Assembly: GCF_003860565.1 (NCBI RefSeq)
Contig: NZ_CP034157.1
Location: 2,232,001-2,296,000, forward strand
Direction: 5' to 3'
From: Cloacibacterium normanense
GTDB lineage: Bacteria > Bacteroidota > Bacteroidia > Flavobacteriales > Weeksellaceae
DNA length: 64,000 nt
Shown here: positions 13,414 to 57,331 of the stretch, one piece after another
Layout of the letters: every line of letters begins with the position of its first letter
How positions within the stretch are numbered: the stretch's first letter is position 1
Notes under the pieces: model-generated
Told to the model about the DNA's origin: nothing
Database searches by the model: none
What the model saw: only the letters and a program-made list of their open reading frames with translations
Position numbers and translations under genes: made by a program

Positions 13414-15555
13414 TTATTGAGCTTGAGAAGTTTTATCCCATACTTCAATTCTGTAATCTTCTATCTTAGCATTGTCTTGTAAACTCTTCATTAATGATTG
13501 GCTAAACATTTGAGCACCTTGCTGTTGAATTGCCTGCATAATTTGTTTAGCGTCTCCTGGTTGTTTGTTTAGGGTAACCGCTTTTTGAGTCACTACAAAA
13601 ACACCAGTTGCACCTTCTACTGGTTTAGAGATTTTACCTTTTTTAACACCAAATGCAGCTCCGGCAACTTTAGCTTCCATAGCACCTCCTACAAATGGAG
13701 AGAATAAACTTACTTGCGAAGATTGTTTAGTGGTTCCAAATAATTTTGCGATAGCATCTAAATTTGTTGCTTTACTTGCAGTAATTTTTTCGCTAATTTT
13801 TTTCGCTAATAATTGATTTCTTACAATTGGTTCTACTTGTTCTCTTACAGATTCTGGATCTGCAATTCCCGCTTCTTGTTTACCGTTTAAGTACACTACG
13901 ATGTAGTCACCATTACCAGTAGTAAAGATATTGGTTTCTCCTTTTTCTCTTTCTTTATTGAAAGCCCAAGCTAAAATTTCTTCATCCTTATCTGTACCTA
14001 AGCCTTGGATTTGACCTTGGAATCTTTTTACAGATTTAGGATTTTGGAAATTGAAATTTTTCTTTTTCGCTCCGTTTGCAAAATCATTGAAAGATTTTCC
14101 TTGAACTGATTGAATGAAAGTATTTGCTTCTGTATATACTTTGTTTTCGGTTTCTTTAGAAGCTCTGATGTCTTTTGCTAAGTTTGCAATTTTGTAAACT
14201 GGCATTTTATTTTCGTTAACAATAATATGATAACCGAAATCAGTTTCTACTACACCTACAGCTCCTTTTGCGTTTCCTTTTACCCAATCACCGAAAGGTT
14301 TTGCGTAGTTGTTATCATTATCTAAAATCCAACTTAACATACCTCCTCTTTGCGCAGCACCTGGCTCATCAGACATTTGTACATATTCGTTGAATTTCAA
14401 CGGATCAGCTTTTACTAATGCACCAATGCTGTCTGCTAATTTTTTAGCTGCTTCTTTGGTTCTAGTTTGCTTTTCATCTGCTCTCATTGCACCCTTGTAT
14501 GCAAACAAAATGTGTTTAGGCATTGTAGCGCTGCTTTTTCCTACTAATTTGGTCACGTAATATTTATCACCAGATTTATAAGGTCCAAAAAATTGTCCTA
14601 CAGAAGCACCTTTTACAAAAGCTTGCGCTTCTTGAGGAATTTCTTGGTCAGAAACAAATGAATATTTAATTTGTGCTTCAGAGTTTAATTCTACAAACAT
14701 AGAATCGTTCGGAGTATTTTTGAAACTTTCTAAGCCATTTCCATTATCTACACCTTCGTTGTAAAGTTTGTTAATTTCTTTAAGAGCTAAAGCATCATCT
14801 GCTGCACTAGGTTTTGCAGGAAAATATACGATCCCTAAGTTTCTAGCAGCTTCAGATTTAAACATCACAGGATGTTTTTTGATATAGTTTGCTAAATCTT
14901 CAGTAGTAACTTTCACTGGATTTTTAGCAGCAAAAGCAGCATAATCTACTTTCACGAAGTCTATATCAGCAACTTCGTCTCTTTGCTTCATTAGTTCAGC
15001 AGCTTCTTTTTTGTTGGCTGTAATTCCTGCAGTAACGTTTGCAAAAAGCTGTCTTGCCATCATTCTGTATTCGATAGCCTTTTTAGCTTTTAACCATTCG
15101 TTATATTGATTTACGTCGCCATTATTTTTAAGTTCTTCGATTTGCTTTTTAATTTCAGCAACTTTGAAGTTTCCTTTTTCGTCAAAATTCTGTGGATTCT
15201 GTTCTTTAGAAAACATTGGGTCAAATTGTAATTGATTCCAAAAAATTTCATCTGTAATTTTTAACCCCATTTTATCAAACTGTTGTTCAATTAATTTAGA
15301 CTGTACCAAAATTTGCCAAGCTTGTTCTTCTAAGCCTTGCTGTGGTTGTCCTTGAGATTGTTGTTGTAACAAACTTAATTGGTCATTAAATTCATCACGA
15401 GTGATTTCTTCACCATTTACCTTTCCCAAAATATTTGGATTTTGACCAAACATTTTATCCATGCTGTCAGGATTAATTAAAAATGCTAAAAGTGCAATAA
15501 TAATCATTCCTAATAATAGCCAAGGTCTCTTTCTTATTGAAGCTGTAATTGACAT
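13414..15555 (-). CDS. Periplasmic peptidyl-prolyl isomerase/chaperone (PpiD/SurA-like)
   Basis: This 713-residue protein is anchored by one N-terminal helix (RPWLLLGMIIIALLAFLI, residues 9-26). A SurA_N-like chaperone domain (about 40-250) contains NGEEITRDEFNDQL, and a parvulin-type PpiC domain follows at about 340-450 (AMRADEKQTRTKEAAKKLAD, GGMLSWILD, then VGVVETDFGYHIIVNENK). The layout matches PpiD, which helps fold outer-membrane proteins as they emerge in the periplasm. It is a single-gene unit: a terminator follows and lon diverges upstream across 331 bp. Confidence 0.92.
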   Translation of the reverse strand: MSITASIRKRPWLLLGMIIIALLAFLINPDSMDKMFGQNPNILGKVNGEEITRDEFNDQLSLLQQQSQGQPQQGLEEQAWQILVQSKLIEQQFDKMGLKITDEIFWNQLQFDPMFSKEQNPQNFDEKGNFKVAEIKKQIEELKNNGDVNQYNEWLKAKKAIEYRMMARQLFANVTAGITANKKEAAELMKQRDEVADIDFVKVDYAAFAAKNPVKVTTEDLANYIKKHPVMFKSEAARNLGIVYFPAKPSAADDALALKEINKLYNEGVDNGNGLESFKNTPNDSMFVELNSEAQIKYSFVSDQEIPQEAQAFVKGASVGQFFGPYKSGDKYYVTKLVGKSSATMPKHILFAYKGAMRADEKQTRTKEAAKKLADSIGALVKADPLKFNEYVQMSDEPGAAQRGGMLSWILDNDNNYAKPFGDWVKGNAKGAVGVVETDFGYHIIVNENKMPVYKIANLAKDIRASKETENKVYTEANTFIQSVQGKSFNDFANGAKKKNFNFQNPKSVKRFQGQIQGLGTDKDEEILAWAFNKEREKGETNIFTTGNGDYIVVYLNGKQEAGIADPESVREQVEPIVRNQLLAKKISEKITASKATNLDAIAKLFGTTKQSSQVSLFSPFVGGAMEAKVAGAAFGVKKGKISKPVEGATGVFVVTQKAVTLNKQPGDAKQIMQAIQQQGAQMFSQSLMKSLQDNAKIEDYRIEVWDKTSQAQ

Positions 15556-15659
15556 TTTATATATAAGTATTTAAAATCAGTGTGCGAAAATACATAATTT
15601 TAAGATAATAGAGAAATTTTATCACTCATTTTCATTCGTTTATATTTATTTTTTTAAAG

Positions 15660-15674
15660 GACTTTACAGAAGTC
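15660..15674. promoter_or_regulatory. Candidate upstream activator site for the lon sigma-54 promoter
   Basis: The inverted repeat GACTT-TACAG-AAGTC is centred about 100 bp upstream of the sigma-54 -24 element, within the usual range for enhancer-binding-protein sites. Arms are only 5 bp, so chance is possible. Confidence 0.3.
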
Positions 15675-15765
15675 TATCTGGCAAATATTTCATAATGCAT
15701 CACCACTTTGAAAATCAGTTCAGTTTTCTAGAATAAAAAAAGGAAAATTTGTCCATAAAAACTCT

Positions 15766-15780
15766 TGGCATAGCTATTGC
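15766..15780 (+). promoter_or_regulatory. Sigma-54 (RpoN) promoter of lon
   Basis: The sequence TGGCATAGCTATTGC matches the -24/-12 consensus TGGCAyrN4TTGC at every defined position, with GG and GC ten bases apart. The predicted start site near 15792 gives a leader of about 95 nt before the lon ATG. A sigma-54 activator is encoded at 53.8-55.1 kb. No competing TAnnTTTG promoter with a -33 TTG was found in the gap on this strand. Confidence 0.7.
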
Positions 15781-15855
15781 GAATATTACAATACTCTTTA
15801 TTTTAGGCAAGAAAATTTCGAATCTTGTCTTGGTAATTAATTTATATACTTTAAA

Positions 15856-15872
15856 AATGACAAATTGTCATT
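15856..15872 (+). promoter_or_regulatory. Palindrome in the lon leader (possible operator or leader hairpin)
   Basis: The perfect inverted repeat AATGACAA-A-TTGTCATT has 8-bp arms around one base and ends 14 bp before the lon ATG. Its core GACAA(N)TTGTC resembles the palindrome GACAA(NN)TTGTC at 62181-62192, though the spacing differs by one. Confidence 0.45.
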
Positions 15873-15886
15873 CTAATTTTTAGATT

Positions 15887-18277
15887 ATGATTGAAATAGA
15901 AGATATCGCTTTTGAAAATTTTTTAGACGAAAATTTTAGTATCGTGGCAAACGAAGAAAAACAAACCAAAGAAGAAAAAGCGCAAGAGATTTTCCCGATT
16001 CTACCTGTTAGAAATATGGTGATGTTTCCGAAAGTGGTTATCCCCATAACTGCGGGAAGAGAAAAGTCTATTAAATTATTAGAAGAAGCACAAAAAAATG
16101 GTCAACTAATCGGAATTTTGAGCCAAAAACTCTCTCAACAAGAAAATCCCACCGAAAAAGATCTTTACCAAATAGGAACTATTGCTAAAATCATAAAAAT
16201 CATCAAACTTCCTGATGGTAATATTTCTGCAATCACGAGAGGAGTTCAGCGTTTCAAAGTGAAAAATTTCATTGAAACCGAACCGTATTTCACCGCAGAA
16301 ATAGAAAAATTAAAGGATTCTTCTACCAAAAAGAAAGAAGAATATGAAGCTTTGATTGATAACATCAAGGATTTAGCAATTAAAATTATAGAAATAGACC
16401 CTAATATTCCTGGCGCAGCTAATTTTGCCATCAGAAATATTGAAGGACAAGAAGATTTACTGAATTTCATCTGCGTAAATGCAAATTTTTCTTCAGAAAA
16501 CAAACAAAAACTTCTGGAAGAAAAATCATTGATGAAGCGCGCAGAATTATGCTATGAACTGATGCATGATGATTTCAGAAGATTAGAATTGAAAAATCAA
16601 ATTCATCAAAAAACTTCTCGCGATTTAGACAAACAACAGAGAGAATATTTCCTGAGCCAACAAATTAAAACCATTCAGGAAGAATTAGGTGGTGGAACCG
16701 AGACCGATGTAGATGAACTAAAGAAAAAAGCAGAAAAAATTTCTTGGAAACCAGAAATTCAGGAACATTTCGAAAAAGAACTGAAAAGACTTCAGCGCCA
16801 TAATCCTAATTCGCCAGATTACAACGTACAGAGAAATTATCTAGATTTCTTCACAGATTTACCTTGGAATTCTTATTCTAAAGACATTTTTGATATTCCA
16901 AAAGCGGAAAAAATCTTAAATAAAGACCATTTCGGTTTAGAAGACATCAAAAAAAGAATTTTAGAACACATGGCAGTTCTGAAATTAAAAAACGACATGA
17001 AATCTCCTATTTTGTGTTTAGTTGGTCCTCCTGGAGTCGGTAAAACTTCCCTCGGAAAATCTATTGCAGATGCTCTTGGCAGAAAATATGTAAGAATGAG
17101 TTTAGGAGGTTTGCATGACGAATCAGAAATCCGTGGACACAGAAAAACTTACATCGGCGCAATGGCAGGAAGATTATTGCAAGCCATCAAAAAAGCAGGA
17201 ACATCTAATCCAGTTATCGTGTTAGACGAAATAGATAAACTTGGACAAGGAATTCACGGCGACCCTAGTTCTGCACTTTTGGAAGTTCTAGATCCAGAAC
17301 AAAACCACAGTTTTTATGATAATTTCTTAGAAATTGGGTACGATTTGTCAAAAGTAATGTTCATTGCTACAGCCAATTCGCTTTCTACCATTCAAACGCC
17401 ATTGTTAGACAGGATGGAAATTATTCAACTTTCGGGTTATACCATTGAAGAAAAAGTAGAAATTGCAAAACGCCATTTGATTAAAAAACAAATGGAAGAA
17501 ACTGGCCTACAAAAAGACGCTTATAAACTAGGAAATAAAGAAATTGCACACATAGTAGAAGCTTTCACCAGAGAAAGCGGTGTAAGAAATTTAGAAAAAC
17601 AAATCGCCAAAATTTCTCGTTGGGTTGCGCTACAAATTACCATGAATAAAGAATACGACCCGAAAATTTCTATTCAAAAAATTGATGAAATTTTAGGTGT
17701 TCCGATGTCTAAAAACTTCTCAGAAATGATGGATGTTCCAGGTGTAGTTACAGGCTTAGCTTGGACTTCGGTTGGCGGCGATATCTTATTCATAGAGAGC
17801 ATTTTAAGCAAAGGAAAAGGCAATCTTACCATGACGGGAAATCTAGGAAATGTGATGAAAGAATCTGCAACCATTTCGCTAGAATACATCAAAGCAAAAC
17901 ACGAAAGTTTAGGCATTTCTTTAGAAGATATTGAAAATAAAAACATCCACGTTCACGTTCCAGAAGGCGCCACTCCGAAAGATGGACCAAGTGCAGGAAT
18001 TGCAATGCTAACGAGTATGGTTTCTAGTTATTTGAATAAAAAAGTAAAACCACATTTAGCAATGACTGGCGAAATTACTTTAAGAGGAAAAGTGCTTCCA
18101 GTTGGTGGAATTAAAGAAAAATTGTTGGCCGCAGTAAGAGCCGAAATTAAGGAAGTAATTTTGTGTGAAGAAAACAGAAAAGACGTTTTAGAAATCAACC
18201 AAAATTATCTTAAAAATCTAAAAGTTCATTACGTGAAAACCATGAAAGAAGTGGTAGATTTGGCGATTGAAAAATAG
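15887..18277 (+). CDS. lon: ATP-dependent protease La (Lon)
   Basis: This 796-residue AAA+ serine protease degrades misfolded and regulatory proteins in the cytoplasm. In order it has an N-terminal LON substrate domain (about 38-230, starting [18 protein letters not shown]), the AAA module with Walker [14 protein letters not shown] near residue 385 and Walker [11 protein letters not shown] near 445, and the C-terminal protease domain with the Ser-Lys dyad in [11 protein letters not shown] and [13 protein letters not shown]. Length is normal. It appears monocistronic, with a sigma-54 type promoter upstream and a hairpin downstream, which suggests stress- or state-linked control rather than housekeeping expression. 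Confidence 0.97.
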
Positions 18278-18376: not shown

Positions 18377-18610
18377 ATGAGCACTGCTGAATTAAAATTA
18401 AATTTAATCAATCAAATTGCAGGTATTACTGATAAAGTAAGACTTAAAGAAATTATGCAATTACTTAAATTTCAAGCAGATGAGTCTCTTTACATTACTA
18501 ATAAAGAAGAAAAAGAGGCTGTAAAAGAAGCCCAAAATCAGATTAAAAACGGAGATGGAATTTCTAATGAAGATGTTCAAAAAGAAATTACATCATGGCT
18601 GGAGAAATAA
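18377..18610 (+). CDS. Antitoxin of a type II toxin-antitoxin pair (addiction-module component)
   Basis: This 77-residue acidic-basic helical protein has the layout of small addiction-module antitoxins. An N-terminal helical region precedes a C-terminal toxin-binding tail with IKNGDGISNEDVQKEITSWL. Its last 16 bp overlap the start of the RelE/ParE-like gene, the classic antitoxin-first coupled arrangement. Such antitoxins neutralise the toxin and repress their own operon. The specific family is not certain. Confidence 0.8.
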   Translation: MSTAELKLNLINQIAGITDKVRLKEIMQLLKFQADESLYITNKEEKEAVKEAQNQIKNGDGISNEDVQKEITSWLEK

Positions 18611-18891
18611 TTTGGTCACCTAAAGCAAAATCTGAACTTATAGAAATTCTTGAATATTGGGTAAACAGAAATAAATCAAACATTTACAGTTTAAAACTCA
18701 ATCAATTAATCCAAGAACAACTCATTTTTATTTTAGAATTCCCAAAAATTGGTAGAAAAACGGATATCAAAAACGTTTATGTTAAAATTATCAGAGATTA
18801 TCTACTTTATTATGAAATAGAAAAAGGAAATCTTCATGTTTTGACAATAAGACACGGAAAAAAGAATCCTAAAACTTTAGCTTTGAAATAA
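18595..18891 (+). CDS. RelE/ParE family toxin
   Basis: This 98-residue basic protein has the RelE/ParE pattern: an N-terminal strand and helix (IIWSPKAKSELIEILEYW), a middle segment with FPKIGRKTD, then strands VKIIRDYLLYYEIEKGNLHV and a terminal LTIRHGKKNPKTL. The RDYLLYYEI strand and the IRHG terminal are typical of ParE-like members that act on gyrase or, as RelE, on ribosome-bound mRNA. The target cannot be told from sequence. It overlaps the antitoxin gene by 16 bp and is followed by a terminator. Confidence 0.88.
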   Translation: MAGEIIWSPKAKSELIEILEYWVNRNKSNIYSLKLNQLIQEQLIFILEFPKIGRKTDIKNVYVKIIRDYLLYYEIEKGNLHVLTIRHGKKNPKTLALK

Positions 18892-37921: not shown

Positions 37922-37951
37922 AGACAAAAGAATAACTGAAAGTGTTTTATA

Positions 37952-38035
37952 GCCCCGATTGAAGTGGAAATCCTTTTTTGTCACATTGAGCGGAGTCGAA
38001 ATGTGAACAAAAAAGGTTACAGCGGAAATCGGGAC
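37952..38035. repeat. Nested-hairpin repeat element, copy 1
   Basis: From outside in, CCCGATT pairs with AATCGGG, CCTTTTTTGT pairs with ACAAAAAAGG, and TCACATT pairs with AATGTGA around the loop GAGCGGAGTCGA. Between the first and second stems both sides keep a purine-rich internal loop (GAAGTGGAAAT on one side, TTACAGCGG on the other). The 16-nt string TGGAAATCCTTTTTTG (37965-37980) is identical in copy 2 at 41220-41235. The inner part contains one copy of the REP-like sequence found after pflB and in rnpA. Confidence 0.7.
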
Positions 38036-38082
38036 TGAAGTTTCAAAAAAATTCAAATTTTCCTGCTCTTAAAGAAACACTC

Positions 38083-53795: not shown

Positions 53796-55079
53796 TTAAT
53801 CTTCTAAATTATATTGTTTTATTTTTCTGTAAAGCGTTCTCTGAGAAATTCCCAATTCATCGGCAGCTTTATTTCTTCTGCCTTTGTGTTTTTCGAGGGC
53901 TTTTACAATTAAATCTCTCTCATTATTGATTAAGGAAAGAGACTCTTCTTTTGGTTCTTCTTCTAAATCTATATCTTCTACTCCATTTTCGTACTCCTCG
54001 GTATCATTGTAGAAATTAGGAGTTGGCGCAGCTGGTTGATCTTCGTAATACAAAATAGAACTTGTATTAACCGGTTGGGTTTCAGTTTTAAAAACTCTAC
54101 CAATTAAATCCTGTTCGTGATGTGAAAAACTTTGATTTCCTCTATTCTTAATCAGTTCCGAAGTTAAGGATTTTAAATCATTTAAATCATTTCTCATGTC
54201 AAAAAGAATTTTGTACATGATTTCTCTTTCTGAACCGAAATCCGCTCCTGAATTCCCTGAATTTCCACCTCTGGAAACCACAGCAGGAAGCTGAGCATTC
54301 ATCGGAATATATTCTGCTAATTTTGTTGAATTGATGGTTCTATTTTGTTCTACCACCGTCATTTGCTCCACTAAATTTCTCAGCTGACGAATATTTCCCG
54401 GGAAAGTATAATTTTCTAAATATTTAACGCCATCATCTGTCAATTGCAACTCTGGCATTCTGTATTTTTCGGCAAAATCAATAGCGAATTTTCTGAAAAG
54501 CAAATGAATATCTCCTTTTCTTTCTCTCAAAGGTGGCATATCAATCTGAACCGTATTGAGACGATAGTACAAATCTTCTCTGAATCTGCCATCTTCAATC
54601 GCTTTCATCATGTTCACATTAGTCGCAGCTACGATTCTCACATTGGTTTTTTGAACCTGAGAAGAACCCACTTTCATAAATTCTCCACTTTCTAAAACTC
54701 TGAGAAGTCTTACTTGAGTTTGCAAAGGCAATTCCCCAACTTCATCTAAGAAAATCGTTCCACCATCTGCTACTTCAAAGTATCCTTTTCTGGTAGAAGT
54801 AGCGCCTGTAAAAGCTCCTTTTTCGTGCCCAAAAAGCTCTGAATCTATGGTTCCTTCTGGAATTGCACCACAGTTTACCACAATATAGGGTTGATGTTTT
54901 CTGCGAGATTCGCTATGAATAATTTTCGGGATATGTTCTTTACCAACTCCAGATTCTCCGATAACCAAAACGGAAATATCTGTAGGCGCCACCTGAATTG
55001 CTTTTTCTATGGCACGGTTAAGTGCGGGAAAATTCCCTATAATTCCGAAACGGTTTTTTATGGATTGTAAGTCGCTCAT
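53796..55079 (-). CDS. Sigma-54-dependent transcriptional activator (no N-terminal sensor domain)
   Basis: This 427-residue AAA+ enhancer-binding protein opens RpoN promoters. The AAA+ domain starts almost at the N-terminus: Walker A GESGVGKE at residues 41-48, the sigma-54 contact loop GAFTGA at 88-93, Walker B TIFLDEVGELPL near 108-119 and an R-finger region FREDLYYRLNTVQ. A linker (about 260-380) precedes a Fis-type HTH (KGRRNKAADELGISQRTLYR). No receiver, GAF or PAS domain precedes the AAA+ part, so activity may be set by level or by a partner protein. miaB is 56 bp upstream on the same strand. Confidence 0.95.
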   Translation of the reverse strand: MSDLQSIKNRFGIIGNFPALNRAIEKAIQVAPTDISVLVIGESGVGKEHIPKIIHSESRRKHQPYIVVNCGAIPEGTIDSELFGHEKGAFTGATSTRKGYFEVADGGTIFLDEVGELPLQTQVRLLRVLESGEFMKVGSSQVQKTNVRIVAATNVNMMKAIEDGRFREDLYYRLNTVQIDMPPLRERKGDIHLLFRKFAIDFAEKYRMPELQLTDDGVKYLENYTFPGNIRQLRNLVEQMTVVEQNRTINSTKLAEYIPMNAQLPAVVSRGGNSGNSGADFGSEREIMYKILFDMRNDLNDLKSLTSELIKNRGNQSFSHHEQDLIGRVFKTETQPVNTSSILYYEDQPAAPTPNFYNDTEEYENGVEDIDLEEEPKEESLSLINNERDLIVKALEKHKGRRNKAADELGISQRTLYRKIKQYNLED

Positions 55080-56596: not shown

Positions 56597-56617
56597 AGGA
56601 AAAATTGTGACAGAATG

Positions 56618-57331
56618 TCAGTCGAAATTTACACTAAATGGAATTTTATATCTCTGTCTTACAGGATTACCATATACTTTAGCAGGCTCCCATTTCTTTT
56701 TGACATGTTTTAATGCATAAACAAATCTATCATCAAATTCTTTCAAACCAGAACTCTTTTCTACTGCAACATCTGTTACCGAACCATCTACATCTACAAC
56801 AAATTTTATAATAACTGTTATTTTACCTCTTCCATTAAACCCACTTAAGTCTACTTTTTTAGCCACCTCATCTCTAAATGAACTTAATCCATTAGGAGGG
56901 AAATCAGCATCTGCATTTAATTTTTTAGGATCATAACCTTCTTTGTAATTATCAAACAAATCATCAGGAAAAAAAGCAAACAAACTTCTTGCGGTAATAT
57001 TATTACTATCTTTTTGAACTGGAGTCCAATTTTTCAATTCAGGCAAAATTTGATCTAACAAATCACTTGCACATTTATTAACATTATATACATTTGGAGA
57101 GTTTTCTATTTTTTTAAACTCTCCTTCGTTGGTAACAATAAATTCTTGATGATATAGAGCTTCCTTCTTGTCACAAGGCGCTAGTTTTTTTTCTATAATC
57201 ACTTGATGTGCTTCTTTATAGAAATTTACAAATCCTCCTTTATAAAATAAATCATTATTATAAAAAGGAATAGATTCTTGAGCTTTAAAAAAAGAAATAA
57301 AAAATAAAAAAATAAATGTAATAGTTCTCAT
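56618..57331 (-). CDS. Energy transducer TonB-like secreted protein
   Basis: This 237-residue protein has a signal-like N-terminus (ITFIFLFFISFFKAQ) and a C-terminal TonB-type domain (about 165-235): GFNGRGKITVIIKFVVDVDG followed by SVTDVAVEKSSGLKEFDDRF and WEPAKVYGNPVRQRYKIPF. The middle region (about 60-150) is not recognised. It lacks the Pro-rich spacer of classical TonB, so it may not span the periplasm; it could be a soluble TonB-domain protein common in Bacteroidota. Preceded by a TATCTTTG box. Confidence 0.82.
   Translation of the reverse strand: MRTITFIFLFFISFFKAQESIPFYNNDLFYKGGFVNFYKEAHQVIIEKKLAPCDKKEALYHQEFIVTNEGEFKKIENSPNVYNVNKCASDLLDQILPELKNWTPVQKDSNNITARSLFAFFPDDLFDNYKEGYDPKKLNADADFPPNGLSSFRDEVAKKVDLSGFNGRGKITVIIKFVVDVDGSVTDVAVEKSSGLKEFDDRFVYALKHVKKKWEPAKVYGNPVRQRYKIPFSVNFD

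Follow-up and report, generated by a model that had tools for sequence, protein, structure and literature searches.

Introduction

In Escherichia coli, transcription of the protease gene lon is under sigma-32. To our knowledge, this heat-shock sigma factor of the Proteobacteria is absent from the Bacteroidota, a phylum in which the induction of proteases and chaperones is poorly understood. For the fish pathogen Flavobacterium psychrophilum, a transcription-start map published in 2021 places lon under a sigma-54 motif termed SM4, which was confirmed through mutagenesis at another operon (ISME Commun., PMC9723704). By the same account, lon is co-expressed in one cluster with groESL, dnaK, grpE-dnaJ, and htpG, and the sigma-54 genes of F. 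psychrophilum are found mainly in clusters for protein quality control, envelope stress, and gliding. A comparative study from 2025 reported that, among the ATP-dependent proteases, COG0466 (Lon) is enriched in the predicted sigma-54 targets of Flavobacteriia and Bacteroidia, with GroEL, GrpE, DnaK, and ClpB likewise among the predicted targets (PMC12316311); the source it gives for sigma-54-dependent grpE and groES (its reference 80) is a Blattabacterium paper which, judging by its title, is not a promoter study. Control of lon by sigma-54 is already known for the flavobacterial group, and the idea is not new. Here we describe the lon promoter region of Cloacibacterium normanense, starting from a stretch of 64 kb, referred to below as the window, within a genome of 2.76 Mb that forms one contig.

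Results

The lon gene is divergent from a gene for a peptidyl-prolyl isomerase, and its predicted promoter lies in the intergenic region common to both:

15887-18277, + strand: lon, ATP-dependent protease, with LON substrate-binding, AAA, and Lon_C domains in a Pfam scan
13414-15555, - strand: SurA/PpiD-like peptidyl-prolyl isomerase gene (Pfam scan)
15766-15780, + strand: -24/-12 element of the predicted lon sigma-54 promoter, TGGCATAGCTATTGC, an exact match, conserved ahead of lon in the family and in a large part of the phylum
15792, + strand: predicted lon transcription start, 12 bases past the C of TTGC

The start is placed by the position rule for sigma-54, under which transcription begins about 12 bases after the -12 box. 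Ahead of the isomerase gene, a block at 15583-15594 (TGCGAAAATACA on the + strand) is conserved throughout the family and, on the - strand, is a near match to the housekeeping -7 box TAnnTTTG. Directly 3' of lon, at 18377-18891, lies a ParE-type toxin gene (18595-18891) preceded by a short overlapping frame that starts at 18377 and looks like an antitoxin gene; degradation of antitoxins is known for the protease family of Lon. Elsewhere in the window, at 37947-38040, a Flavo-1 RNA (Rfam RF01705) scores above the gathering threshold.

As the initial annotation had stated, every defined base of the -24/-12 consensus is matched at 15766-15780: TGGCATAGCTATTGC fits TGGCAYR-N4-TTGC with zero mismatches, having GG at -24, TG(C) at -12, and the standard spacing. 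A bare match of this kind is at chance level in the genome and alone proves little. The exact form, TGGCAYRNNNNTTGC, has two matches genome-wide compared with three for the reversed pattern, the shorter form, TGGCAYRNNNNTTG, has 8 compared with 14, and the loosest form of the motif has 22 compared with 41. With counts at or below the reversed control, we dropped motif frequency alone as a basis for judgment. We also rejected an E. coli-type sigma-70 match, TTGGCA-16-TACAAT at 15765-15792, since its consensus is not that of the Bacteroidota and members of the genus already differ in the TACAAT.

What sets the lon element apart from chance is its conservation in relatives. Regions upstream of lon were fetched, without regard to the element, from seven genomes of the genus and 43 other genomes of the family; a second sample consisted of 80 named loci found via the Lon protein, 79 of which had enough upstream sequence. 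The initial annotation had suggested searching for the element before lon in related flavobacteria, and TGGCA[CT]-N5-TTG is indeed present, 91-220 bases from the start codon, in 63 of 64 loci from the family and its close kin. The sole exception (L052) carries TGGCACAGGATTGG, which is one base shorter. Among the 79 named Bacteroidota loci, which span Flavobacteriales, Chitinophagales, Saprospiraceae, and others, the strict element occurs on the lon strand in 60 and on the opposite strand in none, with a mean of 0.39 in shuffled sequences; several of the 19 loci in which it is missing have a relaxed form with a different first base. The A at the seventh position, which lies outside the search pattern, is invariant in 48 non-redundant loci. 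In the most diverged members of the genus, whose Lon proteins are 90-91% identical, three islands are kept within a drifted upstream region: the GGAAAATTTGTC block, TTGGCATA-N2-TATTG, and TAAAAATGACAA-TTGTCATT. Coincidence, for which the genome-wide counts of the exact match and its reverse would speak, is contradicted by conservation that is deep, strand-specific, and position-specific, and we regard its probability as negligible.

The conserved TGGCAYA-N4-TTG might also be the site of another DNA-binding protein and not a promoter. Such a reading could draw on the motif's chance-level frequency in the genome and on the variable base after TTG, which at lon is C here and in the closest genomes and mostly T or A, but also G, in other relatives. 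The base after TTG, however, is also G, T, or C at other correctly oriented intergenic sites of the same genome; the element has the sequence and spacing of a sigma-54 promoter; and the lon start of F. psychrophilum was mapped and assigned to a sigma-54 motif (PMC9723704). We consider a site for another protein very unlikely.

Sigma-54 itself and two activators are encoded in the genome:

G000:C1:1914437-1915903: rpoN, complete, with all three sigma-54 domains (AID, core-binding, and DNA-binding)
53796-55079, - strand: bEBP1, sigma-54 activator and candidate lon activator, with an AAA domain (GAFTGA), a C-terminal Fis-type HTH, and no receiver in a Pfam scan
G000:C1:947060-947560 (locus L073): bEBP2, 394 aa, with a receiver and an AAA domain and no recognised HTH or other DNA-binding domain

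A search of the genome for the sigma-54 interaction domain gave two full matches, which are bEBP1 and bEBP2. The observation that a sigma-54 activator is encoded in the same window as lon was correct and concerns bEBP1, the significance of which lies in its being one of two activators, and the sole one with a DNA-binding domain, and less in its neighbourhood, as it is 38 kb away. As no DNA-binding domain is recognised in bEBP2, this activator would need a partner or would have to work from solution. Of 120 family genomes, 119 contain a full-length relative of bEBP1 and the remaining one (G013) has only a distant match; such relatives are also present in most distant genomes tested. The rpoN gene was found in 46 of the 49 genomes reached via named lon loci. 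Almost all sampled genomes thus have both genes, and a comparison for co-loss with the element gives no contrast.

The assignment of lon to sigma-54 in the initial annotation is strongly supported by the conservation of the element, by an intact RpoN, and by the published start map of a relative (PMC9723704). Judging from the sequence, we put the probability that lon is transcribed from a sigma-54 promoter at 15766-15780 at about 0.88. As to the activator of lon, we lean towards bEBP1.

An activator site had been proposed about 100 bp upstream of the element:

15660-15674, no strand assigned: inverted repeat GACTT-TACAG-AAGTC, rejected as a functional site

The repeat exists, but it is not conserved within the genus and was discarded as an activator site: among the four closest other genomes, three (L006, L007, and L008) have an altered first arm, and the two that come next (L009 and L010) lack the whole stretch.

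Comparison of the lon upstream regions revealed different candidate sites, one on each side of the promoter, as well as a further copy of the palindrome elsewhere in the window:

15742-15754, no strand assigned: conserved upstream site GGAAAATTTGTCC, an imperfect palindrome resembling the downstream one, exact in the window
15858-15870, no strand assigned: TGACAAATTGTCA, a conserved palindrome on the downstream side, within the predicted 5' leader and 16 bp from the start codon; the composite that it forms with the element is unique to lon
56608-56620, no strand assigned: the one further TGACANNNTGTCA of the genome, situated before the miaB-bEBP1 genes and kept in this genus alone

Within the genus, the upstream and downstream sites have GAnAAnTTGTC in common. 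In 84 of 90 loci, the distance from the start of the -24 box to that of the palindrome TGACAnnnTGTCA is 91-96 bases, and in most loci the palindrome begins 24-25 bases ahead of the lon start codon. The upstream site, GGnAAnTTTGwC, begins at one of two distances from the -24 box, 24-26 or 34-36 bases ahead of it, in 88 of the 90 loci where such a site is recognisable. Across loci, one conserved site lies at about -61 to -38 and a second one downstream of the promoter. The two spacing classes of the upstream site (24 or 35 bp) differ by 11 bp, which is one helical turn. On the Lon tree, well-supported branches require at least two switches of this spacing, and the best tree has four; the two classes therefore do not go back to one inherited indel. 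In 136 of 197 family genomes, a composite pattern of the element, 60-90 bases, and the palindrome is matched exactly once, and its reverse has no match. All 132 matches that were checked, out of 133 with coordinates, abut lon on the right strand; the place of lon in the remaining genome (G146) was not listed.

Judging from these arrangements, the twin 13-bp sites would most likely be bound by a single dimeric regulator that keeps to one face of the DNA helix. Our tentative candidate for the protein on both sites is bEBP1. Enhancer sites for sigma-54 typically lie about 80-150 bp upstream, and the position of the upstream site, closer to the promoter than ordinary enhancers, is the main weakness of reading it as one. 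This unusual nearness would suit a different arrangement, in which sigma-54 drives lon while the flanking sites bind a separate looping repressor and activation comes from bEBP2. The location of one site in the leader, as with repressor operators, also fits such an arrangement, bEBP2 with its lack of an HTH could act from solution, and other sigma-54-like promoters in the genome are devoid of these flanking sites. No candidate repressor was identified, however, and the genome's only other copy of the palindrome precedes the only activator that bears an HTH, albeit in this genus only. We hold a separate repressor to be possible, if rather doubtful.

Six more correctly oriented intergenic TGGCAY-N5-TTG elements (at position 1501 each of L064, L066, L068, L070, L188, and L192) are 38-95 bp away from the genes that follow them, which encode a beta-barrel protein, an MntR-like regulator, a lipoprotein, and small exported proteins; the lon flanking sites are absent at all six. 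Upstream of smpB, which functions in trans-translation, a TGGCACGTGCTTTGG element is followed by TTTGTCATTTTAATG (L063:1501-1514), in loose likeness to the layout at lon.

The upstream site could also have a role of its own as the -7 box of an additional housekeeping sigma-A promoter, to which sigma-54 would add stress induction. In some genera the site reads TAATTTTG or TAAATTTG, fitting TAnnTTTG; this box occurs in 9 of 48 non-redundant loci, in 8 of the 9 inside the upstream site, and a basal promoter would serve the essential upkeep of Lon. The TA is lost in most genera, though, including the present one (AAAATTTG), and a -33 TTG at the right distance was not found: the sigma-A pattern of the Bacteroidota, TTG-N17-20-TAnnTTTG, has no match in the 330 bp upstream of lon in 50 family loci. 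Nor does a -7 box need a fixed phase with the -24 box. An additional sigma-A promoter at this site is, in our view, unlikely.

For the downstream palindrome we considered an RNA hairpin and rejected it. The predicted leader RNA folds no better than shuffled sequences (z = -0.43), and some distant relatives carry TGACAATTTGACA, which is unable to pair in this way; the palindrome is therefore likelier to be a DNA site. Also within the predicted leader, at 15805-15831, there are inverted repeats ending in TTGTC that are found at the level of the genus and might constitute a third site; they read CAAGA...TCTTGTC here and AGACAAATTG...TGTCT in L009 and L010.

The TGACANNNTGTCA copy ahead of the miaB-bEBP1 genes is a mere hint, since 2.76 Mb of sequence would contain about two by chance (0.05 in 64 kb, scaled up) and since it is kept only in the genus. 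With the palindrome present in two of 20 miaB-bEBP1 loci, both from the genus of the window, we rejected it as general proof of autoregulation.

Discussion

Every sigma-54 promoter requires an AAA+ activator to melt the closed complex. At lon, RNA polymerase with sigma-54 would wait at 15766-15780 in the closed state for an activator, most likely bEBP1, to open the promoter; transcription from near 15792 would then give a 95-base leader with the second flanking site inside. Since the closed complex depends on its AAA+ activator, lon output would track the signal of that activator and not a heat-shock sigma factor. The two matching 13-bp sites that frame the promoter, at 15742-15754 (about -50 to -38) and 15858-15870 (about +67 to +79), would be either enhancer sites of bEBP1 or the paired operators of a repressor.

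In a broader proposal, bEBP1 would bind both sites in fixed helical phase, by which lon would be a dedicated sigma-54 gene under loop control in the Bacteroidota as a whole. This would stand in for the part that sigma-32 plays in protease induction in Proteobacteria, and in this genus bEBP1 would also act on its own genes via the palindrome. Taken as a whole, we regard this proposal as speculative and somewhat unlikely. An AAA+-dependent lon promoter that is kept in much of the phylum together with two phased sites would nevertheless offer a concrete place to seek a stress sensor, as the search for the sensor behind lon then comes down to a pair of candidate activators and a pair of defined sites. 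In open-access main texts, we did not find a description of this depth of conservation combined with twin flanking sites, helical phasing, and one composite per genome.

Among known activators, those of the PspF type have an AAA domain and a C-terminal HTH and no N-terminal receiver. bEBP1 shares this organization, but differs from them in that about 125 residues separate its AAA lid from the HTH. With E. coli, the locus has in common the protease itself and transcription linked to stress, whereas lon of E. coli is served by a heat-shock sigma factor of the sigma-70 family and no AAA+ activator is involved. In the 2025 study, the regulon was predicted statistically for each class, and operator anatomy is not given (PMC12316311). 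F. psychrophilum has three activators as opposed to the two in the Cloacibacterium genome, and the accessible part of its start map leaves flanking sites, their phasing, and the activator of lon undiscussed; the likeness between the two organisms lies in the promoter itself, the lon start of F. psychrophilum having been mapped to a -24/-12 sigma-54 motif (PMC9723704).
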